Below are positions 22,200-63,565 of a stretch of DNA of 64,000 bases, one piece after another (within the stretch, counting starts at the first letter, position 1; every line of letters starts with the position of its first letter). The notes beneath the pieces were generated by a model. It searched no databases. It saw only the letters and a program-made list of their open reading frames with translations, and had not been told where the DNA came from. A program made the translations under genes and the position numbers. Source of the stretch: Oceanipulchritudo coccoides (GTDB lineage Bacteria > Verrucomicrobiota > Verrucomicrobiia > Opitutales > Oceanipulchritudinaceae); contig NZ_JAAGNX010000001.1 in assembly GCF_010500615.1 (NCBI RefSeq), forward strand, positions 945,531 to 1,009,530. The letters run 5' to 3'.

Positions 22200-22982
22200 T
22201 TAACGTTGCCTGCGCCGCCAGACGACAAAACCAAATGTGGCAATTGCCGCCATCAACGCATAAGTGGAGGGTTCGGGGACCGCTGACACGGAGAATTCAA
22301 AACCACTCAGGCCAGCACCTCCGGCGTTTCCGGTAATTGTGCGGAACGTCATGTCTTCACCGGCAGAAAGGGAGATGCCGATTCCAGAGATAGTGCCTGA
22401 TGTGGATGTGTTGGGTATCAACTGCTCGATAACCGTGCCACTTGTGTCCTCCACCCCGAAAGAGGATCCTCCATTCGCAAGGCGTCTACCATACGAGAAA
22501 TTGGCCAAATCCAGGGAGAATCCAGTGACCGCGGTTGCCGTTCCCGATACGGAGAATGTGACAAATTCACCACTTTCCAGTGCTGTGGCATTGCCTTCTC
22601 CTTGCGTTACTAAGACAGCGCCAGAACCGGCATTATCGTACGACGGAAAATTAAGGCTTGGGGCAGCGGATCCTGAAAAGGTCAGTGTGAAGGAGGTATT
22701 GTATAGAGCCGCGGCGGTCGTCGTTCCCGCGGTCGCATTATCTACTTGATTCCATCTCGCGGGAGAGGCTGCACCACCACCACTCCCAAGCGCAACCGCG
22801 TCGAGCGCTATATTGCCGGACCCATCAATCGTGAAGTTGAGGGCTAGTGAGGCCGCACCAGCGGCGGCAAAACTTTGTGCGTCGGGGCTCAGGTCCACGT
22901 CGAAATTGACGACAATTTGGGCGTAGGAGGATATGGTGGATAGCAAGCTACCAACCAGTAGGAGTTGTTTTATATTATTCAT
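22200..22982 (-). CDS. PEP-CTERM-anchored secreted beta-rich protein
   Basis: A 260-aa protein with an N-terminal signal peptide (to about SYA), a beta-rich body and a C-terminal sorting signal: VPEPSTYALMAAIATFGFVV then WRRRQR, that is PEP motif, hydrophobic stretch and basic tail, as processed by exosortase. The body shows the features of a domain shared with proteins at 49.1-59.3 kb: 'LNFTIDGSGNIALD' near the start and GGAGLSGFEFSVSAV at the end. Function is unknown; a surface or matrix-associated glycan-binding role is a guess. An AAACGTTT site lies 32 bp upstream of the start and a strong terminator follows, so it is a single-gene unit. Confidence 0.85.
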   Translation of the reverse strand: MNNIKQLLLVGSLLSTISSYAQIVVNFDVDLSPDAQSFAAAGAASLALNFTIDGSGNIALDAVALGSGGGAASPARWNQVDNATAGTTTAAALYNTSFTLTFSGSAAPSLNFPSYDNAGSGAVLVTQGEGNATALESGEFVTFSVSGTATAVTGFSLDLANFSYGRRLANGGSSFGVEDTSGTVIEQLIPNTSTSGTISGIGISLSAGEDMTFRTITGNAGGAGLSGFEFSVSAVPEPSTYALMAAIATFGFVVWRRRQR

Positions 22983-23011: not shown

Positions 23012-23024
23012 TTAAACGTTTTTC
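23012..23024 (-). promoter_or_regulatory. LacI-type operator site upstream of the PEP-CTERM gene
   Basis: AAACGTTT core at 23014-23021; on the minus strand it reads GAAAAACGTTTAAC, close to the sites at 23482 and 42614. A -35-like TTGCCT lies at 23045-23040, 16-17 bp before an A-rich -10 region inside the site. Confidence 0.55.
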
Positions 23025-46495: not shown

Positions 46496-46496
46496 C

Positions 46497-47762
46497 TCAA
46501 GCTCTGACAGATTGCGCTTCAAGAGCGAGGGCGACCCAATCGCTCCAATTATTGTCGACAATCGACATCACTGGCTTGGCCTGCCAGTCACTATCATACA
46601 AGGAGAAATGCTGTGGCTTGAAATCTCCGGGAAGGACATCATTTGGCTTCGTTGATGGATCATCGAAATCGGGGGCAATATCCACAAACTCCCATCCAAA
46701 CCGGGTTCCGTTTTTCAAAGTATTGCTCAAGAGACCATCGACATCCTCTGGAAAATAGTCGGCCCCATTCAGTGTCATGTGCTCAGTAATTGCCCAGTCT
46801 TTCTTATGTTCGCGCATCACTTGGTGGACCCGGTCATAGGCTTTCTGGTTAGGCTTTCTGCGGATATTACACCAACTCCAATTCACCTGTATGATGTTGA
46901 TTTCAGTCAGGTTGCGGAGCAATTCGACCGGGTCGCCAAGACGCCGGTTCATAGTCCCATTTTCTGCGTCCAAATAGTCAGTGGCGATCCAGAGCGGGGC
47001 TCCGTTGGCGGCCTCCTTGTAGGCACGCGCATCCCCGTTGATCCAGCTGGCAAGGTTTTGCGCACGAAAGATGTTCCAGGCTTTTGAATCAATGAAGGCC
47101 TGGCTGGCCGGCAATTTATCCGGAAAGGGCAGGGGATTCAGCTCGGGATTGCGGGCCAACCACTTCTCATAGCTTTCCCTGGCTGCTCTGCTGTAGTCCA
47201 GATTTTGCGAGCCCATATATTGCGGCTCAACAGTTGTCTCAAAATAAAGGAAATTTTCCGCCCCCAGTTTCTCGACCAGATTCTTCATGTAAGCCCGGGA
47301 TGCGTGCAAGTACTCCGGTGAAAACAGGGAAGGAACAGCCGTGTTGTAGCCATACTCAGTATCCCGGACAGGGTTGCCTTCATGAGTGATCGCTTCTGTT
47401 TCGGGGTTGTTATCCCAGAATCCTTGAGGGATCTGCCCGCCGCCAACACCATAGGTTTCCACTGACAGCGATGCATACATGCCGTGAGCATCCACTGCTT
47501 TCAGCAAATCGTACAAAGGCTCAAGGGAGACTTCAATCCGTCCGTCACCCGAAGGGTTGAAATGGTGCCAGTAGCAATTGATCGCCAGATTCTTGTACCC
47601 TTTCGAGGCAATTACCGGTAGGTCCGCCATCAGCTTGCGGACTTCCGTCGGATCCCCGTAGTTTCTCAATGGCTTTCCTGTTTTCAGGAACTGATGCTCA
47701 TCATTTACATAGAGCCTTCCGTCACGGAGGCAATGGCCAGTTTTATACGGGTGAATGTGCAT
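46497..47762 (-). CDS. Cytoplasmic TIM-barrel glycosidase-like protein (clan GH-A type)
   Basis: A 421-aa protein without signal peptide, so probably cytoplasmic. It starts MHIHPYKTGHCLRDGRLYVN, then LPVIASKGYKNLAINCYWHH, a candidate acid/base in FETTVEPQYMGS and a candidate nucleophile in WAITEHMTLNGADY; the placement resembles clan GH-A barrels such as GH42 or GH5. Family membership is not settled. It lies between the LacI gene and the GH71/99-like gene on the same strand. A perfect 14-bp palindrome containing AAACGTTT sits 14 bp upstream of its start. Confidence 0.6.
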   Translation of the reverse strand: MHIHPYKTGHCLRDGRLYVNDEHQFLKTGKPLRNYGDPTEVRKLMADLPVIASKGYKNLAINCYWHHFNPSGDGRIEVSLEPLYDLLKAVDAHGMYASLSVETYGVGGGQIPQGFWDNNPETEAITHEGNPVRDTEYGYNTAVPSLFSPEYLHASRAYMKNLVEKLGAENFLYFETTVEPQYMGSQNLDYSRAARESYEKWLARNPELNPLPFPDKLPASQAFIDSKAWNIFRAQNLASWINGDARAYKEAANGAPLWIATDYLDAENGTMNRRLGDPVELLRNLTEINIIQVNWSWCNIRRKPNQKAYDRVHQVMREHKKDWAITEHMTLNGADYFPEDVDGLLSNTLKNGTRFGWEFVDIAPDFDDPSTKPNDVLPGDFKPQHFSLYDSDWQAKPVMSIVDNNWSDWVALALEAQSVRA

Positions 47763-47842: not shown

Positions 47843-48880
47843 TCAGGCTTTTGGCGGAGCTTCAGAACCGCGGTGAACCAGCTCGACCGGGAGCAGCACC
47901 GATGAGACGGACGTTTCCGGATTTTGAATACGGTTGATAATCGTTTCTGCACCAATCCGACCGAGGCCTGCCTTGTCTACTTTCACGGTGGAAATAGGCG
48001 GGCTGGAGCTTCGACTGTGCCGGTCGTCATTGTAGCCAAAAATGGTCAGGTCTCGGGGAATGCTGAATCCGTCGTCCTTCAATTTTTCAAGCAATTCGAC
48101 AGCAAGAGTATCATTAACGCAAATGACTGCTGTCGGAGGACGCTTTCCAAGGAGCAACGGTTTCAACCGCTCGTACCCATCATCCGTCCGATAGAAATCC
48201 CGCATACTGGGATTGAGTGTCTTGGGAAGATCATGCCGATTGACGGCTGCCAGAAAGCCGGCCTCACGCTGATCGGCGTTGGTATCCTCATGGGCGTGCG
48301 CCATGAAGACAATTCGGCGGTGCCCCAGATTGACGAGGTGGTCCACGATCTGCCCGCAGGCGGCGTATCCATCAGTCGTGATGTAATCAATTTTGATGCG
48401 TTCCCGATAGCTGTCCAAGTGTAAAAGGGGAAGTGAAAAACCAAGTAATTTCCTCACTTCAGACCGGGGGAAGCCGCCAAGGAGGATGATCCCGTCGACT
48501 TTTCCCTGTCGGATGAACCGGGGCGTATGCTGATCTGCCACCGATGAATCAAACCCGGAGAGCAACAGGTCATATCCGCGGCTTTCCATCGTCGCTTCCA
48601 GCGCTTCCATGATTTCCGCGTAGAAAATATTTCGGAAAATCGCCGAGGTGGACGGATAGAAGAGGAGTCCCACGGTCTCCATCGTCTGGCGCCGCAGGTT
48701 CCGGCCAGCTGAGTTTGGCACGTATCCGTGCTTCTCGCAGATTTCCAGCACTTTCTCACGGACTTCCTGGCTGATACGGCCCTTGTTATTGAGGGTGTTT
48801 GATACTGTCGCAATTGAACATCCCGCTAATTGCGCTATTTCTTTTATCGAGGTGATCCGTTTTATGGGCTGTTTACTCAT
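47843..48880 (-). CDS. LacI-family transcriptional regulator
   Basis: A 345-aa DNA-binding sugar-responsive repressor. Helix-turn-helix at about residues 10-32 (TSIKEIAQLAGCSIATVSNT), hinge to about residue 63 (GYVPNSAGRNLRR), then a periplasmic-binding-protein-like effector domain (ETVGLLFYPSTSAIFRNIFY, GIILLGG, VICVNDTLAVELLEK, GYNDD). The effector is not predictable. It is the only regulator of this type seen in the window, and eight exact AAACGTTT palindromes lie near it, so it is the best candidate to bind them. Divergent from the 49086 gene; the site at 49038 is 158 bp upstream and may also control it. Confidence 0.93.
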   Translation of the reverse strand: MSKQPIKRITSIKEIAQLAGCSIATVSNTLNNKGRISQEVREKVLEICEKHGYVPNSAGRNLRRQTMETVGLLFYPSTSAIFRNIFYAEIMEALEATMESRGYDLLLSGFDSSVADQHTPRFIRQGKVDGIILLGGFPRSEVRKLLGFSLPLLHLDSYRERIKIDYITTDGYAACGQIVDHLVNLGHRRIVFMAHAHEDTNADQREAGFLAAVNRHDLPKTLNPSMRDFYRTDDGYERLKPLLLGKRPPTAVICVNDTLAVELLEKLKDDGFSIPRDLTIFGYNDDRHSRSSSPPISTVKVDKAGLGRIGAETIINRIQNPETSVSSVLLPVELVHRGSEAPPKA

Positions 48881-49085: not shown

Positions 49086-50189
49086 ATGAAATATTCCTTA
49101 ATTCTGGCTTTGAGTCTTCTGTCTTGTGCAGCAAGTTTATCCGCGGCCGTGTCGGCCAACCTTGTCATATCTGTTCCGGAGGGAACGGACGATCCACAAG
49201 CCCCGACGGCGGTTGATGGTGTCGAGGGCGGGTTGGCCCTGGCCTACGGAGGAAAGTCCTTTCTGCGTTTTATTGTGAAGGCGGGAAATGGCAACGTGAA
49301 ATTGAATAATGAGGCTGGCAACAGTGGTGCACCGGAAATCAAGGCCTGGGGTGACCTTCTTGATGTGCTCGGAGATGGAAACAGTCTTCCCGGGTCCCCG
49401 CTAAGTTATGTTCCAGAAGCGGATGAAGTAATCATTATCACCCTCAATGGTGAAAATTCAAATGGCGGTTCTGCCGGATTCAGAGCGAACAACGGGACGG
49501 GATTCGGCGTTATTGGCGGAAACCCCAACCGGCTTGACTGGAGGTTTGACCAGGCCGCCAGCGAGGGGATACGGCTTGATGTGGATGCGACAGCCCTGCC
49601 TGAGACCCATCGGGTGGTCATATCTTCAATAACAGTTGGCAACGGAACTCCAAATGGAGTTGTCATTCCCACTGTGACAAATTTCGCCGGTGGGGCAGTC
49701 ACGGGAACGGAAATTGTGACCTTGGAAGACCAGAGTGTGCTTGAGCTGAGCAGTGCCCATGAGCTGTTGGGCGGTCGCTTTGGCCAGATTTGGGTGCGGC
49801 AGGCGGTACAGCCCGAGGCAGGGGATTTAGGCTTTTGTCTTCAGGGCATCTCGCTGGATGTACTTCCCTATTACGGGGAATGGGCCAACTACTTTCTCTC
49901 AAACGAGGCGGGTGACACGGAAACGAAAACAGTGCTGGGATCCATCAATACAAGCCTTGGAGAGTGGGTCTGGAGCAATGATCTTTCCCTCTGGATCTAC
50001 ATCAATGAAAGCTCGGTCACGAACAATGGTTCCTGGGCTTATTTGCCCGCGGAGTCAGAGGCGGCCCTTGGTGAGACATCGGTTGTTGAAAACGACTGGC
50101 TTTACCTGCAGGAACTGTCCCAGTGGCTCTATCAGCCGGCATCACTTGTCGGTGAGACTGGCAGTTGGGTCTACGTTCTGGGCCTGTAG
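49086..50189 (+). CDS. Secreted beta-rich protein with shared unnamed domain and W/Y repeat tail
   Basis: A 367-aa protein with a signal peptide (to about SLSAAV). Residues 24-260 are one copy of a domain also found twice in the protein at 53520-55268: shared features are NLVIS...DDPQAP, 'NGNVKLNN', 'RANNGTGFGV', 'IRLDVDATALPETHRVVIS' and the closing GDLGFCLQGISLDVLP. Residues about 265-367 contain aromatic repeats of the type WVWSNDLSLWIY and WLYLQELSQWLYQP, reminiscent of cell-wall or choline-type repeats but not identified. Function unknown. First gene of the unit with 50239 and 50916, under the promoter at 49013. Confidence 0.75.
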   Translation: MKYSLILALSLLSCAASLSAAVSANLVISVPEGTDDPQAPTAVDGVEGGLALAYGGKSFLRFIVKAGNGNVKLNNEAGNSGAPEIKAWGDLLDVLGDGNSLPGSPLSYVPEADEVIIITLNGENSNGGSAGFRANNGTGFGVIGGNPNRLDWRFDQAASEGIRLDVDATALPETHRVVISSITVGNGTPNGVVIPTVTNFAGGAVTGTEIVTLEDQSVLELSSAHELLGGRFGQIWVRQAVQPEAGDLGFCLQGISLDVLPYYGEWANYFLSNEAGDTETKTVLGSINTSLGEWVWSNDLSLWIYINESSVTNNGSWAYLPAESEAALGETSVVENDWLYLQELSQWLYQPASLVGETGSWVYVLGL

Positions 50190-50238
50190 GTCAAGCAACC
50201 TGCTTTCCCTGTTTTGCCCCATTTAACCTCTAACGCTT

Positions 50239-50919
50239 ATGAAATCCCTGGTCGTATTTTTGTCTTTGAGCGTGTTTTTGAGTTCGAGTCAGGCTGCGAT
50301 CCCAGTCCTTTTTTCGTATGATGGAACAGAGGCTGTAAGGAACCGCTCAATCAAGCTCGATTTCTCGATCAACGATGAAGGTGTTGTTTCGCTTGACGCC
50401 TCCACACAGAGCCCGGACACGCATGCCAATGTAGCGGTGGACAAGTGGGATAATGAGAACATTGGCACGGTTGAGGACAAATCTTTGTTCGGTAAATCGT
50501 TCTCCTTGCAATCTTTTGGTGAAAATGAAAAAGGCGGCTCTCCTCCCTTGATACTGCGCCCGGAGGAAGGTGGTGTGCTTGGTGTCGGTGGTCACAATCC
50601 TGGACGCATTGACGGGACAGGCATCAAGACTGGCCCGAACAAGGAAAAGATGTCATGGGTTTTTTCTGGGGACGTGGAACTGGTCCTTATGGGCTTTTCC
50701 TGCGGCTTGGTCACAAACAACAGCGGTATCATTGTTGAAGATGCCGATAGTGACATGCGAACCGGACCTTTGAAAATAGGCACACCGGCCAAACAGGACA
50801 TTCTGCAAGGAACGCTTTCCCTTGTCGATGGTGAGAAATTGGTGTTTAAAGCTGATCCTGACCTGATGCAGGGGGCTGGTTTGGTTGGATTTGACTTCGA
50901 AATCAAAAGCCCCGAGTGA
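50239..50919 (+). CDS. Secreted protein with divergent copy of the unnamed domain
   Basis: A 226-aa exported protein, signal peptide ending near SSQAA. The body shows the domain pattern in a reduced form: IKLDFSINDEGVVSLDA, PGRIDGTGIKTGPNK, VELVLMGFSCGLVTNNSG and the closing QGAGLVGFDFEIKSP, matching the end motif of the neighbours. It starts 49 bp after the 49086 gene and its stop codon overlaps the GTG start of the GH71/99-like gene by four bases, so expression is coupled. No enzymatic motif seen; a carbohydrate-binding accessory is possible. Confidence 0.68.
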   Translation: MKSLVVFLSLSVFLSSSQAAIPVLFSYDGTEAVRNRSIKLDFSINDEGVVSLDASTQSPDTHANVAVDKWDNENIGTVEDKSLFGKSFSLQSFGENEKGGSPPLILRPEEGGVLGVGGHNPGRIDGTGIKTGPNKEKMSWVFSGDVELVLMGFSCGLVTNNSGIIVEDADSDMRTGPLKIGTPAKQDILQGTLSLVDGEKLVFKADPDLMQGAGLVGFDFEIKSPE

Positions 50920-53369
50920 GCAAATATCAACCCCCCCGTTTTGTGAATAAATTCAAGCTTCCCCTTTTTCTCCTTCCGGCGCTTCTTCCAGTTGCCTCAT
51001 ACGGAGCGACAGTTTCCCTCGTTCCTGATGATTACTCATTTGGGTCCTTCACTGTTGAAACTGTTAACGGTCAGGATGTTTGGGTGGCTACCAACGCCAA
51101 TTCCTACCTTTATTTTGATGTTCCCTCAAGTTTCTCCTTCGTTCCCGGCGAGCCGGTTTACGTCGAGATTGAGTACATCGATGATGCTACCGGCAGGTTG
51201 TTTGTGGAATATGATTCGGGATACGGCTCAGATCCCAGCGACAAAAATTACGATGCGGAGATCCACACCCGTTCAAGCCGGCTGGGGACCCTTGAATTTG
51301 TGAAGTCCTATCAAGTCTTTGAAAATCCGTTGTTCGCGAACCGGCAAGGCGGGGGGAATGACTTCCGTATGCGGCTGCTGAACTGGAGCGGGACGCCTCT
51401 CCGGATCGCTTCGGTCAAAATCAGCACCGAGATTTTCCCTGATGAGCAACTTCTGTATGCTAACTCAAAGCCTTGGTTACAGCCTTACAACAGCCCAGTT
51501 GTTGATCACGTGGATAACCTCAGCCTTAAAGGGAAGGTGCTCGCCGGTTACCAGGGCTGGTTCAATGCGCCAAATGACCTGAGAGACAAAGGCTGGAATC
51601 ATTGGGGTCGCACACGTGACGTGGATCCGTCTCCAACTGAGATTACAATCGACATGTGGCCATGGATGAATGACTACGACCCGGATTCGATCTATCCCGT
51701 TGGGCAGATGGACCTTGGGGACGGGCGGCCTGCCTATCTGTTTTCTTCGGCGGACCTCGATACGGTCCAGACACACTTCCGCTGGATGCGAGAGTATAAT
51801 ATAGACGGGGTTTATTTGCAGCGTTTTGTCTCACGGACAAATAGCGGATTTTATGGGGCGGAGGAATTCGTTCTTCATAACGTGCGGGAGGCCGCCAGGC
51901 TGGAAGGCCGGGTATGGGCTCTTGAATACGATATCAGCTCACTGGACACGGATCCGGACCCGCTTCTGGTCATGCAGAATGACTGGAACTGGCTGGTCAA
52001 CGAAGCGGGAATTCTTGATGATCCCCGCTATCTTCATGAAGATGGAAAACCGGTGTTGTTTATCTGGGGCTTTTCAACCAACGGGCGTGACTTTACGGTC
52101 GCGCAGGCTAACGAGATTGTTGATTGGTTTGCAGCCCAGAATCTTTATTTGATCGGTGGTGTTCCCAATAGCTGGGAGAGCAAAACGGACTGGTTTGGCC
52201 ACTATCAAAAGTATGACCAATTGCTTGCATGGCAGGAGTCCTCAGGTTCCGAATTGATTTCGGAAAAGGCGCAACTTGACAGTTGGGGAATGAAGATTCT
52301 CCCGCATGCCTGGCCCGGCTTCTCATGGACAAACCTCAAGAAGCTTTTGCCGGGGCAACAGTTTACTCCGCGCAACGGCGGGCAGTTCTATTGGGACCGG
52401 ATCAAGAACGCCATTAACACCGGAGCGGACCAGATATTCCTCGGTATGTTCGACGAGTATGACGAGGGCACGGCCATCATGCCTATGTCGGATAATCACC
52501 CTGATCCACATACCGCGTGGGGTAGCTACATTGACAACGAGGGTAGGGATCCCTTTTGGTATCTCCGCCTGAGCGGCGCTGCCAAGGAGATGCTGACGGG
52601 GGTCAGGCCCTTGAGCAATTCCCTCCCTCTCGAATCCGCGATTTCTCCAGCTGGTTATATGGGCGCTGATGCCACCGCTTTTCTTGGCGCGGTTAATGAC
52701 GAGACGAACCTCTTTCTCGCGGAGCCTTTCGATGGCCTGACTTTCAGCGCCACCTACGGCGGACAGGAATGCCGGCACAATGAGCTCGACCCCAATGCAA
52801 CGACCTATATCTATTTTGATGTCGATGATGCTTTCGTCCCGGGAATCCCTGGCGAACAGACGGTCATGATCGAGGTTGAGGTCTACGTAACCGAGGCCAA
52901 TACCTCTGTCCGGTTACAATATGACAGCAACGACCCGGATTATGCCCTCAACCCCAATTACAAGTTGGCTCCCGACCCGATAGCCTTTCCCAAACCAAAT
53001 GTCTGGACCACCGTTCGGTGGTTCATCGACGATGCGGCTTTTGAGAACAGCCAAAATGGACCAGCTGATTTTCGCCTCAATATTACAAAGGGCAAACTCG
53101 CTGCGGTCAGGAGGGCCAGCGTCTTCCTTCCCAATAACTCAACAGGGTCTATCGATCCCTCCATTCGCTTGAACATCCAGAATGGTCAGGTAGTTTGGTC
53201 TGATCGGATTGATGCGGTCGGTTGGCGCCTTTCCAAGTCCCCTGATTTAAGCCCCGGGAGCTGGCTTTCAGTTCCTGACATCGATATCTCTTTTCTCGAT
53301 GGGGATATTTTCTATGATTTCGATCTGCCCAGCGGGTCAGAATTCTTCAGGCTGGAATCGACAGACTGA
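50916..53369 (+). CDS. GH71/99-like hydrolase flanked by two related beta domains (GTG start)
   Basis: An 817-aa exported protein. Start GTG 50916 overlaps the previous stop (GTGA); another GTG at 50943 would also give a signal peptide. Residues about 35-190 and 600-760 are two related beta-domains (each has YLYFDV or YIYFDV, a SYQ- or F-anchored 'VFENPLFANRQGGGNDFRMRL' / 'FENSQNGPADFRLNI' element and SVFLP-type end), probably carbohydrate-binding. Between them lies the GH71/99-like barrel: GKVLAGYQGWFNAP, HFRWMREYNIDGVYLQRF, GKPVLFIWGFSTNGRD, HAWPGFSWTNL and FLGMFDEYDEGTAI. The last 45 residues look like a secretion or anchoring tail. Confidence 0.78.
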   Translation: MSKYQPPRFVNKFKLPLFLLPALLPVASYGATVSLVPDDYSFGSFTVETVNGQDVWVATNANSYLYFDVPSSFSFVPGEPVYVEIEYIDDATGRLFVEYDSGYGSDPSDKNYDAEIHTRSSRLGTLEFVKSYQVFENPLFANRQGGGNDFRMRLLNWSGTPLRIASVKISTEIFPDEQLLYANSKPWLQPYNSPVVDHVDNLSLKGKVLAGYQGWFNAPNDLRDKGWNHWGRTRDVDPSPTEITIDMWPWMNDYDPDSIYPVGQMDLGDGRPAYLFSSADLDTVQTHFRWMREYNIDGVYLQRFVSRTNSGFYGAEEFVLHNVREAARLEGRVWALEYDISSLDTDPDPLLVMQNDWNWLVNEAGILDDPRYLHEDGKPVLFIWGFSTNGRDFTVAQANEIVDWFAAQNLYLIGGVPNSWESKTDWFGHYQKYDQLLAWQESSGSELISEKAQLDSWGMKILPHAWPGFSWTNLKKLLPGQQFTPRNGGQFYWDRIKNAINTGADQIFLGMFDEYDEGTAIMPMSDNHPDPHTAWGSYIDNEGRDPFWYLRLSGAAKEMLTGVRPLSNSLPLESAISPAGYMGADATAFLGAVNDETNLFLAEPFDGLTFSATYGGQECRHNELDPNATTYIYFDVDDAFVPGIPGEQTVMIEVEVYVTEANTSVRLQYDSNDPDYALNPNYKLAPDPIAFPKPNVWTTVRWFIDDAAFENSQNGPADFRLNITKGKLAAVRRASVFLPNNSTGSIDPSIRLNIQNGQVVWSDRIDAVGWRLSKSPDLSPGSWLSVPDIDISFLDGDIFYDFDLPSGSEFFRLESTD

Positions 53370-53445
53370 TTTCCCATAGCCGCTTTCAGCCCATAACTGT
53401 CAAGGGGAGGCCCTTGTCCTCGTTCTTGCCTTTTTCACTATTTTC

Positions 53446-53478
53446 TTGACAGGTTTTAGAAACTGATGAAACGTTTAC
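53446..53478 (+). promoter_or_regulatory. Promoter with overlapping LacI-type operator
   Basis: TTGACA at 53446-53451 followed 17 bp later by the AAACGTTT palindrome (53469-53476), so a -10 box would be inside the operator. It is 43 bp upstream of the 53520 gene. Flanks are GATG...ACTC. Confidence 0.55.
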
Positions 53479-53519
53479 TCACCTAACCCTTAAATAATAA
53501 TTACCCTTATCTCAGAATC

Positions 53520-55268
53520 ATGAAAAAGTATGTTGTACTCCTCATTTCGGGCCTCCTGACAATTGCTGCTCTAGAAGCACAAGTAACATCCGATCTTATC
53601 ATCACAAAAGCGGAAGTCGGCGTCACAGATGATCCGCAATCGCCTGCGGATGGGGGCGTTAGCGAGGAATATGGAAACAAGTCCTTTCTGAATTTTTCGA
53701 TTAACGATGGAAATGGTAATCTTGCTTTGAACAATGTGGTTGGGAACAATGGTGGGACGAGTCCGACTCCTGAACAACTGCTTGTCCGTGATTGGGGCGA
53801 TGCACTCGACTACACGGGAGCAACTGACCTAACCAGCCCACCAACGGGTACAGGCAGCAATACCCCGTTCAAGATCACGCTGGTCGGGTTAGACCCGGAT
53901 GGAGTTATTACCCGTCTTCGTGCGGACGACGGAATAGGGTTTGGCGTTTCCGGATCGAACAACGTCCGACTTGATTGGAATTCAGCAAATACGAACAGCG
54001 AGGCCATCCGGATCGAACTGGATGCCACGAGTATTCCTTCTACACATAAGCTGGTGATCACCGCGCTGGAATTGGGCAATGGTAATGGCATTGATGCGGT
54101 CCAGCCCGAAGGACTTATTTCTGATCTCACTGGCGATGCAACTGGCTTTACCGGTGCTTTGGGTTCCATTACCCCACTCACGGACAAAAACGTATTGCCT
54201 CTTGGGGATGGGATCGTGCTGCTTGGCGGAGGGACGGGATCATTTACTCTTTCACAGGCAACTATTCCGCTGACCGGCAACGTCGGCTTCAGCCTGCAAG
54301 GGATCATCCTTGATGTAGTACCGGTCGGTGTTTTCACAAATCTCGTCATCAACAAGGCAGATGTTGGCGAAAGTGGGGTCACAGATGACCCGCAGTCTCC
54401 TGCTGATGGGGGAGTGAATTTAACCCTCGGAAACAGATCATTTTTAAACTATACGATCAACGATACTTCGGGCAATCTTGCGCTCGACCATCTCATCGGA
54501 AACAATGGTGGAGCCAATCCGAACACCAACCAGCAGTTGGTAAGGGACTGGGGGGATGCGCTTGACTTTACGGGTGACACAGGTTTGACAAACCCGCCAA
54601 CAGGAACGGGTAGCAACTCCCTTTTCAAGGTCACCATTAATGGAGTTTCCTCCACGGGGGCAGCTGCCCGGCTGAGAGCCGATGACGGATTTGGGTTTGG
54701 TGTCACAAGTATTGGGGACGCCCGCCGTATTGAATATGTCACCGGAGCAGGCACGCAAAGCGAGGGTATCCTCTTCGAAGTTGACGCCACATCCGTGCCT
54801 TTGACTCACAAACTGATTATATCCGGCTTGGATCTAGGAAAAGGCAGGGGAATTGCCGAAGGGAAAATCTCTGGCTTTACGGGTATAACGCACGCCGACG
54901 AGACATCGGGTGTCTTTGGGAACGGGGCTAGTATTGGAACCGTCTCCTGGGTATTTACAAATCCCATTGAAATCGTCGGGGGCAATACCGCTTCGTTTTT
55001 TCTTTCACAGGCTGTTGCTGGCGCGGTTGCCGGTGAAGTGGGCTTTACACTGACTGGCATGACAGTCGATGTTGTATCCAGCGGACTGGCGGAGCCAACA
55101 ATCTCAATTGCCAATACGGGTGGAAGCCTTGAGGTTACTTACACAGGGACCATCCAGGAGAGCACCAGCCTCTCTGGTTGGACGACCATTGATCCACAGC
55201 CTGCATCCCCCTTCACAGTGCCGGCCCCAGCCTCAGGCGATAAGATCTTCTATCAGGTGATCCCTTAA
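53520..55268 (+). CDS. Secreted protein with two tandem copies of the unnamed beta-rich domain
   Basis: A 582-aa exported protein, signal peptide to about LEAQV. Two tandem copies, about residues 22-267 and 268-520, align closely: both begin 'DLIITKAEVGVTDDPQSPAD' or 'NLVINKADVGESGVTDDPQS', share 'NGNLALNN' or 'SGNLALDH', 'LVRDWGDALD', TGTGSN, RLRADDG, a long 'IRIELDATSIPSTHKLVI' segment and end GNVGFSLQGIILDVVP or GEVGFTLTGMTVDVVS. A 60-residue C-terminal tail (ISIANTGGSLEVTYTGT) follows. No catalytic motif; the repeat structure suggests binding or a structural role. Its own operator and a terminator make it a single-gene unit. Confidence 0.75.
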   Translation: MKKYVVLLISGLLTIAALEAQVTSDLIITKAEVGVTDDPQSPADGGVSEEYGNKSFLNFSINDGNGNLALNNVVGNNGGTSPTPEQLLVRDWGDALDYTGATDLTSPPTGTGSNTPFKITLVGLDPDGVITRLRADDGIGFGVSGSNNVRLDWNSANTNSEAIRIELDATSIPSTHKLVITALELGNGNGIDAVQPEGLISDLTGDATGFTGALGSITPLTDKNVLPLGDGIVLLGGGTGSFTLSQATIPLTGNVGFSLQGIILDVVPVGVFTNLVINKADVGESGVTDDPQSPADGGVNLTLGNRSFLNYTINDTSGNLALDHLIGNNGGANPNTNQQLVRDWGDALDFTGDTGLTNPPTGTGSNSLFKVTINGVSSTGAAARLRADDGFGFGVTSIGDARRIEYVTGAGTQSEGILFEVDATSVPLTHKLIISGLDLGKGRGIAEGKISGFTGITHADETSGVFGNGASIGTVSWVFTNPIEIVGGNTASFFLSQAVAGAVAGEVGFTLTGMTVDVVSSGLAEPTISIANTGGSLEVTYTGTIQESTSLSGWTTIDPQPASPFTVPAPASGDKIFYQVIP

Positions 55269-55403
55269 AAAATGGATCCGAACCTATCGAGAATCAAGTA
55301 AGGGCGTGCCGAATTCCTTTTGTTTTCCCATGACATCTCAATTTAGGTTAGTAGGTCTTGTAAAGTGTCTTTGGGCACTTTAACCAGACTTGCACAGGGG
55401 TTT

Positions 55404-55437
55404 GGGCTGCGTCTCACCATTGAGGCGCGGCCCTTTT
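55404..55437 (+). terminator. Intrinsic terminator after the tandem-domain gene
   Basis: A 12-bp stem GGGCTGCGTCTC / GAGGCGCGGCCC with two G-T pairs and a 6-base loop, followed by TTTT. It lies 136 bp after the stop at 55268 and 78 bp before the TonB receptor start. A short TAAAGTG/CACTTTA hairpin precedes it at 55361-55382. Confidence 0.75.
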
Positions 55438-55514
55438 AAAATAAACCCCGTTTTGCATCAGATTTTAATTTCCCTTTTGTTTGCCACTTAAACTACTCAA
55501 TAAAACCAGATATC

Positions 55515-58500
55515 ATGAACAACTGTAAGACATATCCCGTGAATACAAAGGATCGTAAAATTCTACGAAACTTAATCGCCTTTGGGACAAGCTATTTATG
55601 TGTACTTTCCCCGGTTTTTTCGCAGGACGCGGAAGGAGAGGGAAAAGAGGTTTTTGAATTAAGTCCCTTCGTTGTTTCTGGTGCTGACAGCGGTTATTAT
55701 GCCAGTGAGACTTTATCAGGGACAAGCCTGCGCACGAATATTCGCACTTTGGCGAATCCGATAACTGTGTTTACTGGAGAAGTAATGGAAGATATCGGGG
55801 CAACTTCCTATAAGGATGTGGTTCAATTCATGCCCAGTTCCAGCACCTACGATGGCGATATTGCCGATCCGCTTGGCGAGCAGGTTCGGGCGGGGACTCC
55901 TTTTGTCTCGAGGGGTTTTCGGGTGACCCAGCTGACACAAAACTTTCTAGCGACGAATGTCCGGCAGGATAACTACAACACGGAACGACTGACACAATCA
56001 CGTGGCCCCAATTCCCTTCTCTTCGGACTGGGATCTGTGGGCGGTGCCATTGAGATTCAGCCCAAGCGGGCAATGTTCGGCAAGGATTTCGCACAAGTAA
56101 ACCTATTGCTTGATGATAATGAAAGGGTCCGAGGTAAATTCGATTTCAATAAAACCCTGGTTGATGATAAAATCGCCGTCCGTCTTGCGGCTCTCTATGA
56201 TGACAACCGAACATTTCGGGATATAGAGTATTCCGAACGTAAATCAGTTTACGGTGATATTACCTTCAAGCCTTTCAACAAAACAACCATCCGTGTGAAT
56301 GCTGAGTTTGGCTCCATTGACGAAAACCTTCCGCGGTTGTTTGTCACCAAGGATCGAATTACTCCTTGGACGTCCTCTCCGCTTTCTCTCCTCGATAAAG
56401 CGAACACGACGGATCTCGATTTAATCGTTAATGGACCAGGAAATCTTCGCACGGAGGCAACGAATATTATCCGGGGCGTTACGCAAAGATTTCGAACCAA
56501 CAACTACCTGGTGTGGATAGCCAATGATCCTTCCTTGGGAGTGCTGAATTGGCGTTTCAAAGGACGTGGGAGCGATTTTGATATCAACGGCACGCTGAGA
56601 GGCAACGTGAGTCTTAAGGAGTCCCAGCTTACGGATGATGTTAATTTTCCTCTCACTACCGTCATTGCAGGTCCTTCGGATTTGGTTTCGTGGGATTATG
56701 AGAAATATTCTATCACTTTGGAGCAGCAGATTGGAAGTGACACCTTTCTGCAGGTTGTTGCCGGAAAGGAGAATCAAGACCGCTACGATTATCGTCCCGT
56801 TCGTCGTCAGAACTGGTCCATACAAATCGACAACAATTATTATCTTCCGACCCAGCGCGCTAGCGACAACCCGGATCCCACCCAACCTTTAAATCCGTAC
56901 TTTGGGGTTCCCTACATTGAATCCAATCCCTACCTGATAACGGCAGAAACAGAGCTGGAACAGCTTCGTGCCAGCCTGACTCACAGGATTGATCTCACGG
57001 GTATAGAGATTGCCGACGGATGGGATTTAGGTGAAATCCAACTGGTTGGTTCCTGGTACCATCTGAAATCGGGGGATAATCTCACGCAAAAGGAAGAGAT
57101 GACTCTTCAGTCGGTTCTTCCTAATGGCGTGGTGAGCAATCTACAAAACCAGATTTATCGTCGATTCTATATTTCCAGTAGCACACCCAATTATCCCAAT
57201 ATTCCGTGGAGTCCTTTAAGCCAGCCGGGAGATTCTTCTATAGGTGGGAGAATTGTTCCAGCGATTGAGTCTGCTTTTGTGAATCGACTTCCGCCGATTC
57301 TGAATGAATCAACAACAGAATCCATCTACGGTGTGATTCAATGGAAGCCGTTTAATGAGCGGCTATCTCTCACAGCCGGTTACCGGGAAGACGAGTACCA
57401 GGGATCTGCCATTACGATTCCCATAGACCCCGTCACCCGTTTGTACGGTGATCTTGATACTGGGGAATTGGATCGGTCCTCAAAGAGCAAAGTTTCCAAT
57501 TATAATTTGGGGGCTGTTTTCCGGCCCTTTCGGGATTTTGACTTTTTCATCAACAAGGCGACGAATAATGTCAACGCTTCAACGTCCCGTTTCGACATTT
57601 TCGGAAATTTCCTGCCTCCTGAGGAAGGAGAGGGTATGGATTATGGTATCCGGGCTTTTCTCCTTGAGGACCGGGTGATCGTTAAAGTGAATTATTATGA
57701 GAACACCCAATTCAATGTTCTCAGTAATCCGTTGCGCGATGGTGCTGGAATAGGAATCGGTCTGGCAAGGGAGTTAGGTCGCGTTGAACGCTTGTTAAAT
57801 TCGGTTTCCGCGGCTGGGAGATCCGATCTTGTTGAGGGCGCAATCCGTTATGGTGACTTTCCCGGAAACCAGCTCTGGACAGATATTCAAAACATCCGTT
57901 CCGAGGGATATGAGCTCGAGGTCACCGCTAACATAACGGATAGATGGAATATTCTTTTCAACATATCTATACAGGATTCGTTCCTGGACGATACCTACCT
58001 GATTTTCGATGAATGGTACGATCGTTACTTTGTGCCCATCAAAAATACGGCTGATATCCAGTCTGCCCCAGATCCAAGCGGGGGCGGGTTCGATGTGGCC
58101 CGGCTGGTCAATGATATTGATGTAAAGTATGCGTTTCATGAATCACAGGTTGGTGGTCAATTGGAACGGAGCAGCAGATTGGCATGGAACTTAATCTCCA
58201 CATACAAGTTTGATCAGGACTTTTTCGCGAAGAATCTCCGCGTTGGCACAGCCGTGCGCTGGAGGGAAGGCCCGGCCCTCGGGTATCCGGAACCGGAACC
58301 GGGTGTTTTTGATACATCCAATCCTTTCAAGGGAGATGATGATTTGACCGTGGACGTATGGTTTGCGAAACCATTCCGCTTGAGTAAGGGACCCAATTCC
58401 AAGGTCCTCAATGTAACCCTGCGGGTGAAAAACGTATTCGATGATGGTCCTCTTTTCAGCAGAAGCGGGACAGATGATGGGGCAGGCAACGTGGTTATTC

Positions 58501-58559
58501 TTGCAGAAACCTTCAAAAGGCCACGCAGTTTCCAACTGGAAATTGGGATGCGCTTCTAA
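55515..58559 (+). CDS. TonB-dependent receptor
   Basis: A complete 1014-aa outer-membrane receptor. Signal peptide to about residue 36 (SPVFSQ), then FELSPFVVSG at 47-56, the verrucomicrobial N-terminal motif. The plug domain includes GTSLRTNIRTLANPITVFTG, SRGFRVTQLTQNF and QSRGPNSLLFGLGSVGGAIE. The barrel ends with a terminal phenylalanine (LEIGMRF), as required for outer-membrane insertion. No signalling (STN) extension and no neighbouring SusD-like gene. It precedes two sulfatase genes, so it probably imports the sulfated oligosaccharides or their products. No AAACGTTT site was seen upstream. Confidence 0.93.
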   Translation: MNNCKTYPVNTKDRKILRNLIAFGTSYLCVLSPVFSQDAEGEGKEVFELSPFVVSGADSGYYASETLSGTSLRTNIRTLANPITVFTGEVMEDIGATSYKDVVQFMPSSSTYDGDIADPLGEQVRAGTPFVSRGFRVTQLTQNFLATNVRQDNYNTERLTQSRGPNSLLFGLGSVGGAIEIQPKRAMFGKDFAQVNLLLDDNERVRGKFDFNKTLVDDKIAVRLAALYDDNRTFRDIEYSERKSVYGDITFKPFNKTTIRVNAEFGSIDENLPRLFVTKDRITPWTSSPLSLLDKANTTDLDLIVNGPGNLRTEATNIIRGVTQRFRTNNYLVWIANDPSLGVLNWRFKGRGSDFDINGTLRGNVSLKESQLTDDVNFPLTTVIAGPSDLVSWDYEKYSITLEQQIGSDTFLQVVAGKENQDRYDYRPVRRQNWSIQIDNNYYLPTQRASDNPDPTQPLNPYFGVPYIESNPYLITAETELEQLRASLTHRIDLTGIEIADGWDLGEIQLVGSWYHLKSGDNLTQKEEMTLQSVLPNGVVSNLQNQIYRRFYISSSTPNYPNIPWSPLSQPGDSSIGGRIVPAIESAFVNRLPPILNESTTESIYGVIQWKPFNERLSLTAGYREDEYQGSAITIPIDPVTRLYGDLDTGELDRSSKSKVSNYNLGAVFRPFRDFDFFINKATNNVNASTSRFDIFGNFLPPEEGEGMDYGIRAFLLEDRVIVKVNYYENTQFNVLSNPLRDGAGIGIGLARELGRVERLLNSVSAAGRSDLVEGAIRYGDFPGNQLWTDIQNIRSEGYELEVTANITDRWNILFNISIQDSFLDDTYLIFDEWYDRYFVPIKNTADIQSAPDPSGGGFDVARLVNDIDVKYAFHESQVGGQLERSSRLAWNLISTYKFDQDFFAKNLRVGTAVRWREGPALGYPEPEPGVFDTSNPFKGDDDLTVDVWFAKPFRLSKGPNSKVLNVTLRVKNVFDDGPLFSRSGTDDGAGNVVILAETFKRPRSFQLEIGMRF

Positions 58560-58625
58560 ACGGGCCGGCCAAGTTGCATCGATCCATTAACTGGGCAAGG
58601 TTATGTTGCCTTTCAGATTAACATA

Positions 58626-61600
58626 ATGAATTTCAGACTTTCCACCTTGGGTTTTGTCCTTGTCACCATGGGTTCGTTAGCGGACGCCATGGTGACAGTG
58701 GACTTTTCCCATTCCTACACGGGGGTTGCTGCGGTCACGCAAAACACTGGGCAGATCACTCTGGATTTTGTGGTCGATAGCGTGGGAAACGTGACTCTGG
58801 ACGCCAGTTGTGCCGATCCCGATCCTGCGGCATATGTGAACGAATTTGATGGGCCAGTCGGTTCCCTGCCTGATCCGGCATATTGGAGCACTAGTTTCCA
58901 GGTCATTGTTTCAGGAACAGGCAATCTGCGGATTGATAATAGTGGCTTGGGTCTGGGTATACAGGGGCAAAATGCACAGAGGCTCGATAAAGCCGATGAA
59001 GCAATTACATTTTCCCTGCAATCCAGCAATCTACTCCTTTCGGTGAGTTCCTTGAATTACGGGAATAGCAATGGCTCCATTCTCGATTTTAACGGGGTTT
59101 CGTTCCCTATTTCAGGCAGCTCTGGCCAAGTTGATACGAGTTCTGCCAATGCTGCCGTTTCGGTTGTCATCGATTCCACTTCGGATACCGATGGAGAGGG
59201 CTTTGTGCTAACCGGCATCAGCTTTAATCTGGTTCCCCAGAGTACGGATTCAATGGAAATTGGAACGGATATTTTGTTGCCGGAGGAAGTCTTCATGGAC
59301 GGGAGCAGCGACACCTTTGCTTTTACAGGGTCTGATACGGGATCGCTCACTTTGGGCAAGGCCGGGAAAGTTGTGACCACTCCCTCTGCCAGCGGCGCCA
59401 GTCCCATTGCGATTGGACAGGCGCAGCTGATTATTGAAGAGGGTGCGAGATGGATTCTGGACGGATCACAATACACGGGAACCTTTAACTTGGGTCAGCA
59501 GTTTATCCTATCCACCTTTGGCTCATTTTCAGGCCCACTTACCGGTTTCCGTCACCGTAACTTTTCGCTTCCCGCCAATCGGAACTTAAAACTTTTCCAG
59601 ACCGGATCCTCCATTTACTATGAGGTCGTATCGCAGACGCCGGTGACCGGCCCGAATATCATTGTTGTCTACATGGACGACATGTCCGGAGGGAATCATT
59701 TCGGATTCGAGGGCCGGGATGCCCTGACCCCGACGATTGATTCACTTGCCTCCAACGGGGTGAATTTCACCAATGCCATTACAGCCTCAACAGTTTGTTC
59801 CCCTTCTCGTTATTCTTTGCTCACCAGCCGTTGGCCAACCCGCAACACTGGTGCGGAGTTCCTCCAAAGATATCCTATTGGAACGCTTGCCCGCTTCGCC
59901 AATCTGGGTGTGGAGCTTCCGGAGAACACGGATAATATTGGTGGCTGGTTGCAGGAGCTTGGATACCGCACAGGCTTTGTTGGCAAGTCCCACGTTGTGG
60001 AGCATGATATGCTGGCCACAAGCGGTTGGGTTGCCGGTGGGCTGATGACATATTCCCAGACAATCGATCCGGCGCAGAACGCCCTGCCAAATGCCAAGAT
60101 GGCCTTCAACCACCGGGTCATTGCGGAGCGCCACGTTCGAAGGGGCTTTGATTTCGCAGGTGGGGTCTACCTTGGCAATCTGAAGGAGCAATTCAATGAT
60201 TTCTTGAATTTTCACAATCAGGAGTGGCTCACCTACTACGCACGCCAGTTTATTGAGGAGAACCACTCCCAACCCTTTTTCCTCTACATGGCCCCGACAA
60301 TCAATCACGGGCCCATCCGCAGCAACCTGAGCAAGTCCCTTGGTGCGAATCCGGACTATACAGGTGAGGGGTACGTACCTAACCTCGACTACTCTTTCAT
60401 GCCGTCCAGAAACTCCATCATTCAGGAAGTGACCTCGGCCGGCAAGGCTCTTGTATCAGCTCGCGAAACATGGATCGACTATTCAATGGAAGCGATCATC
60501 AACAAACTCATTGAGCATGGATTGCTCAATAATACGCTTATCATTTTCACTTCGGATCATGGCTATTTGACCTTGGAGGATTCGCCTGTTTTGGATGGGA
60601 AGTCCTCCCTTTTTGAATCCGGCCTCAAAGTCCCACTGGTCATGCATTGGCCTGATGGCATCTCCTCCCCGGGAAGACTATATAATGATCTTGTGCAGAA
60701 TGTGGATATTGCCGCAACGCTTCTTGATCTGGCTGGTGGCTCCAATTTGCCCGCTGAATCAATTAATGGGGTCAGCATTGCATCTGTCCTCGCTGGCAGC
60801 AGTGCTCCCATCCGCTCCGAAGCTTACTCAGAAATAGGCTATGCCAGATCCATCCGGACGTTGGATTGGAAACTTGTTTCCTTGCGTTATCCGGTTTCAG
60901 TTCAACAGCAGGTAGACGCAGGATTCCTTTGGAATGATTATAGCACCGGTCTGCCCACTCATCCACGCCCGTATTATATCCAGAATACGGGCCTCTCGAA
61001 CGGTCCGGCCACTGATTATCCGGGGTACTTCGATGATGACCAGTTATATGATTTGAATGCCGATCCAACTGAACGGATCAATTTATTCGGAGATGAACCG
61101 GCCATTCAGGTGGATTTGAAAAAGCGCCTCTCCTTGTATACTGGAGTCATTACGGGAAGACCCTTTGGCGAATTTGCCCCGATTGCCTCCGCGGCACCAT
61201 CTGCTCCGGCAAGCTTCGATTGGACGATTCCGTCAACCCAGACGCTCAGCCTCTCATGGGCGGATACGGCAAGCAATGAGCTGGGTTTTTACGTGTCAAA
61301 ATCCGTCGAAGGCTCACCTGACGAGATTATTGCGGAGTTGCCTGTCGGTTCATTCAGTTTGTCCCTAACGCTCACGGACTATGGAGAAGATGAAAGTTTT
61401 CAGATTTTCGCCTACAATGCCATCGGAGATACATCGAGTCCTGCCCCGGTGGATCTGATCGAGCCGGATATCTGGCGGTATCGAAATTTCTATGACATTG
61501 ATCCAACACTGACAGATCCGGTCAGTGACTGGGAAGGAGATCCTGATGAGGATGGATCATCCACTCTGTTGGAGTATGCATTTTCCATGGATCCCAGGAA

Positions 61601-61859
61601 TCCCGATTTTGCCCAACCAATTCAGCCCAAACTTGTGAGTGATCCTGGCGGAACTTATCTGCGGACCGACATTCCATGGGATGGTCGGTCCAAGGTAGTT
61701 ATTATCGGAAGGCTTTCCACTGACCTGTCCTCCTGGGATGAAGGTGAGCCTTTTGTCTCTCTCGAGATCGACGAGTTTGATCAGTACTTCCTGAGAAGCA
61801 ACACACCTTTGGAAACAGAGAATAAACAATTCATCATGTACAGGGTGGCTTTGCCTTAG
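58626..61859 (+). CDS. Large multi-domain secreted sulfatase (CSPSR)
   Basis: A 1077-aa exported protein. Order: signal peptide (to about SLADA); residues 22-205, a copy of the unnamed beta-rich domain (TLDFVVDSVGNVTLDA, closing GEGFVLTGISFNLVP); residues 215-340, a second beta-rich domain; residues about 345-860, a type I sulfatase with NIIVVYMDDMSGG (metal aspartates), the formylglycine site C391 in TVCSPSRYSLLTS, GFVGKSHVVEHD and IIFTSDHGYLT; a fibronectin-III-like segment about 870-950; and a C-terminal DPDEDGSSTLLEYAFSMDP region typical of verrucomicrobial secreted enzymes. Normal sulfatases are 450-600 aa, so accessory domains double the length. Confidence 0.88.
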   Translation: MNFRLSTLGFVLVTMGSLADAMVTVDFSHSYTGVAAVTQNTGQITLDFVVDSVGNVTLDASCADPDPAAYVNEFDGPVGSLPDPAYWSTSFQVIVSGTGNLRIDNSGLGLGIQGQNAQRLDKADEAITFSLQSSNLLLSVSSLNYGNSNGSILDFNGVSFPISGSSGQVDTSSANAAVSVVIDSTSDTDGEGFVLTGISFNLVPQSTDSMEIGTDILLPEEVFMDGSSDTFAFTGSDTGSLTLGKAGKVVTTPSASGASPIAIGQAQLIIEEGARWILDGSQYTGTFNLGQQFILSTFGSFSGPLTGFRHRNFSLPANRNLKLFQTGSSIYYEVVSQTPVTGPNIIVVYMDDMSGGNHFGFEGRDALTPTIDSLASNGVNFTNAITASTVCSPSRYSLLTSRWPTRNTGAEFLQRYPIGTLARFANLGVELPENTDNIGGWLQELGYRTGFVGKSHVVEHDMLATSGWVAGGLMTYSQTIDPAQNALPNAKMAFNHRVIAERHVRRGFDFAGGVYLGNLKEQFNDFLNFHNQEWLTYYARQFIEENHSQPFFLYMAPTINHGPIRSNLSKSLGANPDYTGEGYVPNLDYSFMPSRNSIIQEVTSAGKALVSARETWIDYSMEAIINKLIEHGLLNNTLIIFTSDHGYLTLEDSPVLDGKSSLFESGLKVPLVMHWPDGISSPGRLYNDLVQNVDIAATLLDLAGGSNLPAESINGVSIASVLAGSSAPIRSEAYSEIGYARSIRTLDWKLVSLRYPVSVQQQVDAGFLWNDYSTGLPTHPRPYYIQNTGLSNGPATDYPGYFDDDQLYDLNADPTERINLFGDEPAIQVDLKKRLSLYTGVITGRPFGEFAPIASAAPSAPASFDWTIPSTQTLSLSWADTASNELGFYVSKSVEGSPDEIIAELPVGSFSLSLTLTDYGEDESFQIFAYNAIGDTSSPAPVDLIEPDIWRYRNFYDIDPTLTDPVSDWEGDPDEDGSSTLLEYAFSMDPRNPDFAQPIQPKLVSDPGGTYLRTDIPWDGRSKVVIIGRLSTDLSSWDEGEPFVSLEIDEFDQYFLRSNTPLETENKQFIMYRVALP

Positions 61860-61885: not shown

Positions 61886-63565
61886 ATGAAAACGACTATC
61901 CCCACAATTCTGGCCCTTGCCTGTCTTATCAGTCCTGCTACAGGAACTTTTGCCGCTGACTCCCCGCCGAACATCATCATTTTTATGACGGACGATCAAA
62001 GTCCAATGGATTGGGAGTACAGCAAGTTTGACCTGACTTCCCCCGCCGCATGGGGTTACACAGGAGCGAATGTTTACAGCCCGACTGTTGATCGACTGGC
62101 AGCCGGCGGAATGGTTTTTGACAGGGCCTACGCCTCAACAAGTGTCTGCACGCCTTCCCGTTACACAACCCTGACCGGTCGCTACGCTAGCCGGACAAAG
62201 GGTAAGAGGTTCCAACAACTTCATCCGTCTGGATCGCTCACTCGGGTGGAAAACATTGTTGAGCTGGATCCTCCGGATGAACTCAACATGCCGAAGATTC
62301 TGCAACAGAACGGCTATAAGACTGGATTTGTTGGCAAGTCGCACATTGTCGACCACGAGATTCTCAATCATCCGGAGCGCTGGTCAAATTACGGCTTGGA
62401 GGAATATGACAAGGATGCGGATCCATTGGATCCTGAAACAAACGCAAAAATGCAACACAACCACAAGTGGTGGCGTGAACGCATTGCCCCTTATGGATTT
62501 GATTATGTAAATAGTGTCTACTCAGGAAACCTGCGGGAGCTTTTCAACCAAAAGCTCAATGTCCACAACATCGAGTGGACCACCAAGGCCGCTCTGGACT
62601 TTATCGAGCAAAGTGAAGACGGGCCATTCTTCCTCTATTACGCACCGACTTTACCTCATGGGCCGGATCCATGGGTTCGGGATGGACAGGGCCGTTTTAA
62701 ATTCTCTCTCCACGCCGACGAGAACATGACCGGAGAGGGTTATCTTCCGGCTGATTATCCATTCATGCCCACTCGTGAAGAAATCTTGAAGATTGTCCAT
62801 GAGAAGGGATTTCCGGAAAAAACAGCCTATGTGACTTTGATTGATGCTGCTGTGGGCGCTCTTGTCGAGAAACTGGAGGCCTTGGACATGCTCGATAACA
62901 CGGTTATTATCCTTACCTCTGACCACGGTGCCTGGCGCTATGGAAAGACCACTTTGTACGAGGGTGGAATACGTGTTCCCCTCGTGGTTCATTGGCCCGA
63001 GAAGGTGAAAGCGGGCTCTAAGTATAGTCATCTGGTGTCTAATATCGACCATGCTCCTACAATTCTTGGTTTTGCTGGTGCAGAGATTCCCACGGATTAT
63101 CAAATGGACGGAGTCGATTTGACCCCGGTTGCCGAGGGCAAGGAAGAAGGCCCAGTGCATGATTCTGTTTTTGGTGAAATCGGTTACAGCCGCGGTGTCC
63201 TGACAGAAGACGGATGGAAGTACATTGCGATCCGCTACCCAAAAGATGTGCAGCGCAAGATCGACAATGGAAAAACATTCCCGACTTTCAGGGGTATGCC
63301 GATGCCCGGGGAACAATGGAAGCAGGTCAAGACTGGGCAGATGCCTCAGCCGTATCTCGTCCGTAACGGTCACCTTGGTTTTAATTCCTCGAAGCATAAT
63401 CCGAATTACTTCCAAATGGATCAACTGTACAATATCAATGAGGATCCGCGGGAAAAGAACAATTTGGCGGAACAGAATCCAGAGAAGCTCGCGGAAATGA
63501 AGAAGTTATTGTCGCGTTACCTGAAGACATTCCCGGACCATCCATTTGGTGAGTTTACTGAATGA
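61886..63565 (+). CDS. Type I sulfatase (CTPSR)
   Basis: A 559-aa exported sulfatase, signal peptide to about TFAAD. NIIIFMTDDQSPMDWEYSK carries the metal aspartates D36/D37; the modification site is C88 in TSVCTPSRYTTLTG. GFVGKSHIVDHE, YYAPTLPHGPDPW, ILTSDHGAWRYGKTTLYEGG and RVPLVVHWP complete the family pattern. It is a close relative of the catalytic part of the preceding 1077-aa sulfatase (shared FVGKSH..DHE, NLRELFN or NLKEQFN and SRGVLTEDGWKYIAIRYPKD-type segment), suggesting tandem duplication. It starts 26 bp after that gene. Confidence 0.92.
   Translation: MKTTIPTILALACLISPATGTFAADSPPNIIIFMTDDQSPMDWEYSKFDLTSPAAWGYTGANVYSPTVDRLAAGGMVFDRAYASTSVCTPSRYTTLTGRYASRTKGKRFQQLHPSGSLTRVENIVELDPPDELNMPKILQQNGYKTGFVGKSHIVDHEILNHPERWSNYGLEEYDKDADPLDPETNAKMQHNHKWWRERIAPYGFDYVNSVYSGNLRELFNQKLNVHNIEWTTKAALDFIEQSEDGPFFLYYAPTLPHGPDPWVRDGQGRFKFSLHADENMTGEGYLPADYPFMPTREEILKIVHEKGFPEKTAYVTLIDAAVGALVEKLEALDMLDNTVIILTSDHGAWRYGKTTLYEGGIRVPLVVHWPEKVKAGSKYSHLVSNIDHAPTILGFAGAEIPTDYQMDGVDLTPVAEGKEEGPVHDSVFGEIGYSRGVLTEDGWKYIAIRYPKDVQRKIDNGKTFPTFRGMPMPGEQWKQVKTGQMPQPYLVRNGHLGFNSSKHNPNYFQMDQLYNINEDPREKNNLAEQNPEKLAEMKKLLSRYLKTFPDHPFGEFTE

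Follow-up and report, generated by a model that had tools for sequence, protein, structure and literature searches.

A pathway for sulfated alpha-mannan was described in 2026 for Bacteroidota (PMC13063451), and the structure 9FVT is OpSulf1 of Ochrovirga pacifica, an S1_51 endo-6-sulfo-alpha-1,3-mannan sulfatase homologous to the S1_51 domain of PbSulf1-GH195 (Krull et al., PMC13063451). Verrucomicrobiota play an important part in degrading the sulfated polysaccharides of algae, and metagenome-assembled genomes (MAGs) of this phylum have been reported to be without SusCD (PMC8857213), which raises the question of how these bacteria hold such polymers. Here we analyse a 64,000-nucleotide stretch of the genome of the Verrucomicrobiota member Oceanipulchritudo coccoides (hereafter the window; contig NZ_JAAGNX010000001.1, positions 945,531 to 1,009,530, numbered below from its first letter), which encodes several copies of a secreted domain. 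This domain is a concrete candidate for polymer holding in Verrucomicrobiota, with a named ligand.

A search of the whole 3.52 Mb assembly with a joint profile found exactly six copies of the domain in five secreted proteins, and none further. All six genomic copies are inside the window, within 37 kb, in one gene cluster. An earlier note, made from the sequence of the window, had counted about six copies in five proteins, and the joint profile recovers those six and nothing else. The copies are:

49149 to 49868, plus strand: copy A (A-type), residues 22-261 of protein 49086-50189; whole-genome search with the joint profile, E 1.0e-39
50290 to 50916, plus strand: copy B, residues 18-226 of the stand-alone secreted protein 50239-50919; profile matches
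53583 to 54323, plus strand: copy C1, residues 22-268 of protein 53520-55268; profile matches
54330 to 55079, plus strand: copy C2, residues 271-520 of protein 53520-55268; profile matches
58683 to 59240, plus strand: copy D, residues 20-205, at the N-terminus of the sulfatase 58626-61859; profile matches
22278 to 22919, minus strand: copy E, residues 22-235 of protein 22200-22982; profile matches

The domain spans ~190-250 residues, and all five of the proteins that carry it begin with a signal-peptide-like hydrophobic N-terminus. Copies A, C1 and C2 are 41-55% identical to one another and copies B, D and E ~30%, and the two groups are nearly separate by BLAST. Profile comparison with hhalign joins them (probability 96, E 4e-9, 179 columns, in the same order), with a repeat score of 61.9 for the real alignment; the reversed alignment scored 18.2 and, of 60 column-shuffled ones, the best scored 19.0. 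A B/D/E-type profile built without A and C matched, among 244 proteins, only C (E 6e-9) and A (E 5e-4) in addition at E < 0.4. On these comparisons, the three domain subtypes are remote homologues. Their strongest common signature, weakest in E, is located mid-domain and reads G-[IFL]-G-[IV]-x-G-x-N-x-x-R-[LIV]-D. The start and end motifs by which the copies were originally recognized hold in part: taken literally, the start motif occurs only in D and E and the end motif only in D. A relaxed form of the start motif, allowing one extra residue in A and C and G-V for G-N in B, fits all six copies and occurs at exactly six places among the open reading frames of the window and at none in 200 shuffles, figures that are descriptive because the motif was relaxed after the copies were known.

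No Pfam-A or NCBIfam family reaches its curated cut-off in the domain region of the window copies. When 37 members of the domain were compared with the same databases, only scattered chance matches were obtained, with no consistent family among them and none for B; the best member reached E 0.22 with PF03422 (CBM_6), i.e. no usable sequence similarity, and PDB sequences gave no match to the domain. Judged against Pfam-A, NCBIfam and PDB sequences, this is a real, undescribed domain family. The earlier note, which had no family name to offer, was borne out: neither the window copies nor the further members gave a consistent match to a named family in these collections.

To place the fold, we compared predicted structures with solved ones. 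The model of B was obtained with good scores (pLDDT 83.2, pTM 0.84) and that of C1 with modest confidence (pLDDT 66.7, pTM 0.72). Both models, of which C1 is not independent of B because its alignment included B-type rows, are beta-sandwiches composed almost wholly of strands, with one short helix at a matching place in the order. In VIA-align, the matches of B were mostly carbohydrate-binding modules (CBMs). Its values for CBM6 (2cdp, Z 8.4, rmsd 3.2, 118 aligned) and CBM35 (3zm8, Z 8.3, rmsd 3.5, 118 aligned), like those of C1 for CBM6/CBM35-like structures (Z 6.5 and 6.1), fall close to the scores of common arrangements, slightly over or under them. C1 matched best a putative CBM from Aeromonas, 9q5u (Z 10.6, rmsd 3.1, 152 aligned), for which a literature search found no paper, and the next matches, about four units below, were CBM35, CBM6, CBM22 and CBM36 among others. 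The nearest fold is that of CBMs, and the VIA-align ranking gives moderate support to a CBM-like fold, though not proof of function.

The enzymes encoded with the domain point to a possible substrate:

59652 to 60830, plus strand: S1 sulfatase domain of protein 58626-61859 (PF00884, 3e-45), with a C-S-P-S-R active-site motif (formylglycine motif C-x-P-S-R)
61886 to 63565, plus strand: second OpSulf1-like S1 sulfatase, without the domain (9FVT, E 6.4e-154 vs 1e-31 for the next structure)
50916 to 53369, plus strand: GH99-like enzyme gene, whose start overlaps the stop of B (PF16317, E 4.4e-6, below cut-off)

The fusion of one copy to a sulfatase, already seen in the earlier note, is that of copy D, and such fusions are widespread in relatives. 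The nearest solved structure to the 58626 sulfatase is 9FVT (E 7.9e-97 vs 3.9e-34 for the next), i.e. OpSulf1 of S1_51. The window also contains a GH99/WbsX-type gene (29985), a GH92 gene (27366), a GH92-like gene (19662), a GH38 gene (39753) and additional sulfatases, as well as a second GH99-like gene (45197); of the two, this one is more closely related (44-47%) to the GH99-like genes beside domain-bearing sulfatases elsewhere. Together, the OpSulf1-like sulfatases and the GH99-like, GH92 and GH38 genes suggest sulfated alpha-mannan. Gene 45197 is part of a segment (45197-47762) that also encodes a 421-residue protein (46497) without a Pfam match, behind a AAACGTTT site at 47780.

We consider it probable that the domain is a new CBM-like beta-sandwich family that acts as the substrate-holding part of a sulfated-polysaccharide degradation system, with sulfated alpha-mannan as the likeliest ligand. 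In this proposal, copy D would keep the sulfatase on the polymer and so allow removal of internal sulfates, copy B, encoded with the GH99-like enzyme, would bring the chain to that enzyme, and the surface-anchored E together with the free A and C would hold both substrate and enzymes close to the cell and to its TonB receptor. The function and ligand of the domain are inferred. The suggestion in the earlier note of a module for glycan binding or surface display stands insofar as it agrees with the CBM-like fold, the sulfatase fusions, the secretion-type N-termini and the PEP-CTERM signal on one copy type; the binding itself is a prediction. A narrower version, that the module is specific for diatom-type 6-sulfated alpha-1,3-mannan and is used in Verrucomicrobiota and Planctomycetota both on an endo-sulfatase and as a surface capture protein replacing the SusD lid of Bacteroidota, seems doubtful to us.

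Several observations weigh against the substrate-holding proposal, one being the modest confidence of the C1 model and the B-type sequences in its alignment. Foldseek gave no significant match for either model (best E 0.02), and a Z near 8 can reflect merely a common beta-sandwich. Influenza haemagglutinin heads (for B) and plant lectins (for C1) appeared in Foldseek at E 0.02 or worse and were taken as chance. The 61886 sulfatase is OpSulf1-like and has no such domain, so the domain is not essential to this enzyme type, and the presence of GLAA-B-type (GH110-like), GH115 and GH2 genes in the window indicates that the target glycan may be mixed and more complex. Finally, the invariant residues of the domain are mostly structural glycines and hydrophobics, as would be expected if it were a structural spacer or a folding or export module with no binding role. 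We regard that alternative as very improbable, since domain-only stand-alone proteins, some with their own operator-like sites, would then be pointless, and repeated fusions to polysaccharide-acting or lectin-like parts would be unexpected.

The distribution of the domain in other genomes bears on a further alternative. A contig scan that used four close copies as query found 18 loci, 16 in Verrucomicrobiota (mostly MAGs labelled Akkermansiaceae) and two in Planctomycetota; an earlier contig scan with a three-sequence B/D/E alignment had given no match. Across the analysis as a whole, some contigs bear two labels (L047/L093, L045/L023, L049/L024 and L035/L025). In 16 of the 18 loci an S1 sulfatase follows downstream in the same gene, while in the remaining two the contig ends too early. 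Most relatives carry two N-terminal copies, and others one, on a single sulfatase lineage; in the tree, the second of two copies is B-type and the first usually D-type, and D of the window groups with these D-type first copies. Two neighbours recur, a sulfatase of S1_51-like type and a GH99-like enzyme. Homologues of the latter flank the domain-sulfatase in L035, L036, L046 and L049, where they lie immediately upstream on the opposite strand; L038 and L039 have partial copies. In sampled searches, the domain was present in 23 of 244 genomes of an Akkermansiaceae-type family, which shares its class with the genome of the window, and in just 4 of 223 genomes of the window's own order. An A-type profile matched no other genome in searches of the class (384 genomes) and the family (17 genomes), an absence that is weak because the first look of the search tool is coarse, and a viral scan for the A-type gave no match.

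Beyond sulfatases, the domain occurs on two GH14/GH42-like enzymes, one with CBM6 (G194), on a 1147-residue protein with laminin-G repeats (G969) and on PEP-CTERM-type proteins in four genomes (G870, G857, G825 and G888). It is thus found as a discrete module within carbohydrate-active enzymes, both sulfatases and GH14/GH42-like enzymes, as is characteristic of CBMs. The PEP-CTERM proteins of G870 and G857 are encoded by the gene immediately before that of the domain-sulfatase, and over their whole length they share 61-65% identity with E. This pairing of an anchored copy with an adjacent sulfatase in two other genomes, along with the tandem copies on many sulfatases and the five proteins here, could also be explained by a scaffold or docking module, in which copies on the anchored protein and on enzymes bind one another and gather enzymes at the surface without contacting glycan. 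In most genomes, however, the sulfatase alone has the domain and the available sequence shows no anchored partner, the fold favours binding modules over cohesin or dockerin, and no conserved interface is known, which makes docking distinctly unlikely compared with the substrate-holding role.

Unrelated PEP-CTERM-type proteins also adjoin domain-bearing enzymes (L099:8068-8931, L102:2539-3378 and L026:11736-12635), and having an anchored partner may thus be general. Those beside single-copy sulfatases in L099 and L102 were considered as divergent copies and rejected, as they are not matched by the profiles. Long genes whose N-termini are prepilin-like, putatively of the Verru_Chthon cassette type, adjoin the domain-sulfatase in Akkermansiaceae MAGs (L023:10735-14082 and L024:12686-16000). 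In G450, from a distant family, a domain fragment is located beside a sulfatase, a LacI regulator and an IS3-type transposase, as read from the sequence (L104:3924-11140), and the GH38 next to the fragment is 71% identical to that of the window; this is apparently a related locus broken by insertion.

Regulation and surface anchoring were examined in the window and across the genome:

49038 to 49045, no strand assigned: AAACGTTT, operator-like site upstream of A
53469 to 53476, no strand assigned: the same operator-like site upstream of C
23014 to 23021, no strand assigned: the same operator-like site upstream of E
47843 to 48880, minus strand: LacI-type regulator gene, 40% identical to the L104 LacI-family protein, which matches PF00356
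22209 to 22283, minus strand: sorting signal of PEP-CTERM type in E (PF07589 and TIGR02595 both exceed their cut-offs)
55515 to 58559, plus strand: gene for a TonB-dependent-receptor-like protein, located between C and D (Plug, PF07715, E 2.7e-4, marginally under its cut-off)

The operator-like sequence occurs nine times in the window versus 1.2 expected, and the sites of A, C and E are ~30-45 bases ahead of the start codons, in agreement with the earlier statement that three copy-bearing genes carry their own operator. The LacI-type 47843 protein presumably reads these sites and controls the cluster. Three genes of the genome are exosortase-like (best E 1.4e-24), but none of them reaches the curated cut-off. 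Protein 49086-50189 ends in a Trp/Tyr-rich C-terminal tail (residues 262-367) with repeated W-V/I/L-Y units and no Pfam match. A different tail of ~55 residues (like ESSxLxxW...SPW...FxR) is common to proteins 53520-55268, 50916-53369 and 58626-61859, and tails of this type are also present elsewhere in the genome and on sulfatases of relatives, L003 and L004 being among the loci concerned, on secreted proteins several of which are otherwise unrelated; the tail may be a sorting signal.

The arrangement of C directly upstream of receptor 55515 raises the question of whether the free and anchored copies (A, C and E) are a functional stand-in for SusD that hands chains to the receptor. The SusD families SusD_RagB and SusD-like_3 (PF07980 and PF14322) have no match in the genome, with a positive Bacteroides control, which agrees with the absence of SusCD reported for Verrucomicrobiota MAGs (PMC8857213), and operator-like sites precede both A and C. 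A search with receptor 55515, however, found no similar TonB receptor in the relatives' loci, the other genomes searched yielded no A-type copies, the beta fold differs from that of SusD, and a lipid anchor and a receptor complex are hypothetical. Because the adjacency of domain and receptor is seen only in this window and the sulfatase is the constant partner, only A and C could act directly in the manner of SusD, which we hold as a minority reading; for A, C and E together, the stand-in is unlikely. Of the SusD-like role offered in the earlier note, then, the lack of SusD and the position of C fit, and the relatives' loci and the fold do not.

Comparison with known systems shows both the likeness and the distance of the domain. 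SusD/RagB proteins have the role that was raised above as a possibility, glycan capture at the outer surface beside a TonB-type receptor in a regulated locus, but are a different family with an alpha-helical TPR-type fold, whereas our models are almost all strand; PF07980 and PF14322 do not match the domain copies either. CBM6, CBM35 and CBM22, which are galactose-binding-like beta-sandwiches, resemble the domain in overall beta-sandwich (Z 6 to 8.4), in being secreted and in being carried by enzymes that act on polysaccharides; they differ in their length of ~130 residues versus 190-250, and the new domain has its own mid-domain signature and a binding function that is predicted. The Aeromonas salmonicida structure 9q5u is the best structural match of the A-type model but is only 9% identical, is part of a construct of a putative CBM and a split domain, and does not appear in the list of matches for the B model. 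The PbSulf1-GH195/OpSulf1 system of Bacteroidota has in common with this locus OpSulf1-like sulfatases, a GH99-related enzyme, GH92 and clustered genes (PMC13063451). The available part of that report mentions no such domain on the Bacteroidota enzymes, whereas here it is N-terminal on the sulfatase. A literature search for GH195 with Verrucomicrobiota returned nothing beyond the same report, which describes GH195 as weakly GH99-like (PMC13063451), and the products of 50916 and 45197 likewise have only a weak resemblance to GH99. If the substrate-holding proposal is true, the sulfated alpha-mannan pathway described for Bacteroidota (PMC13063451) would extend to another phylum.

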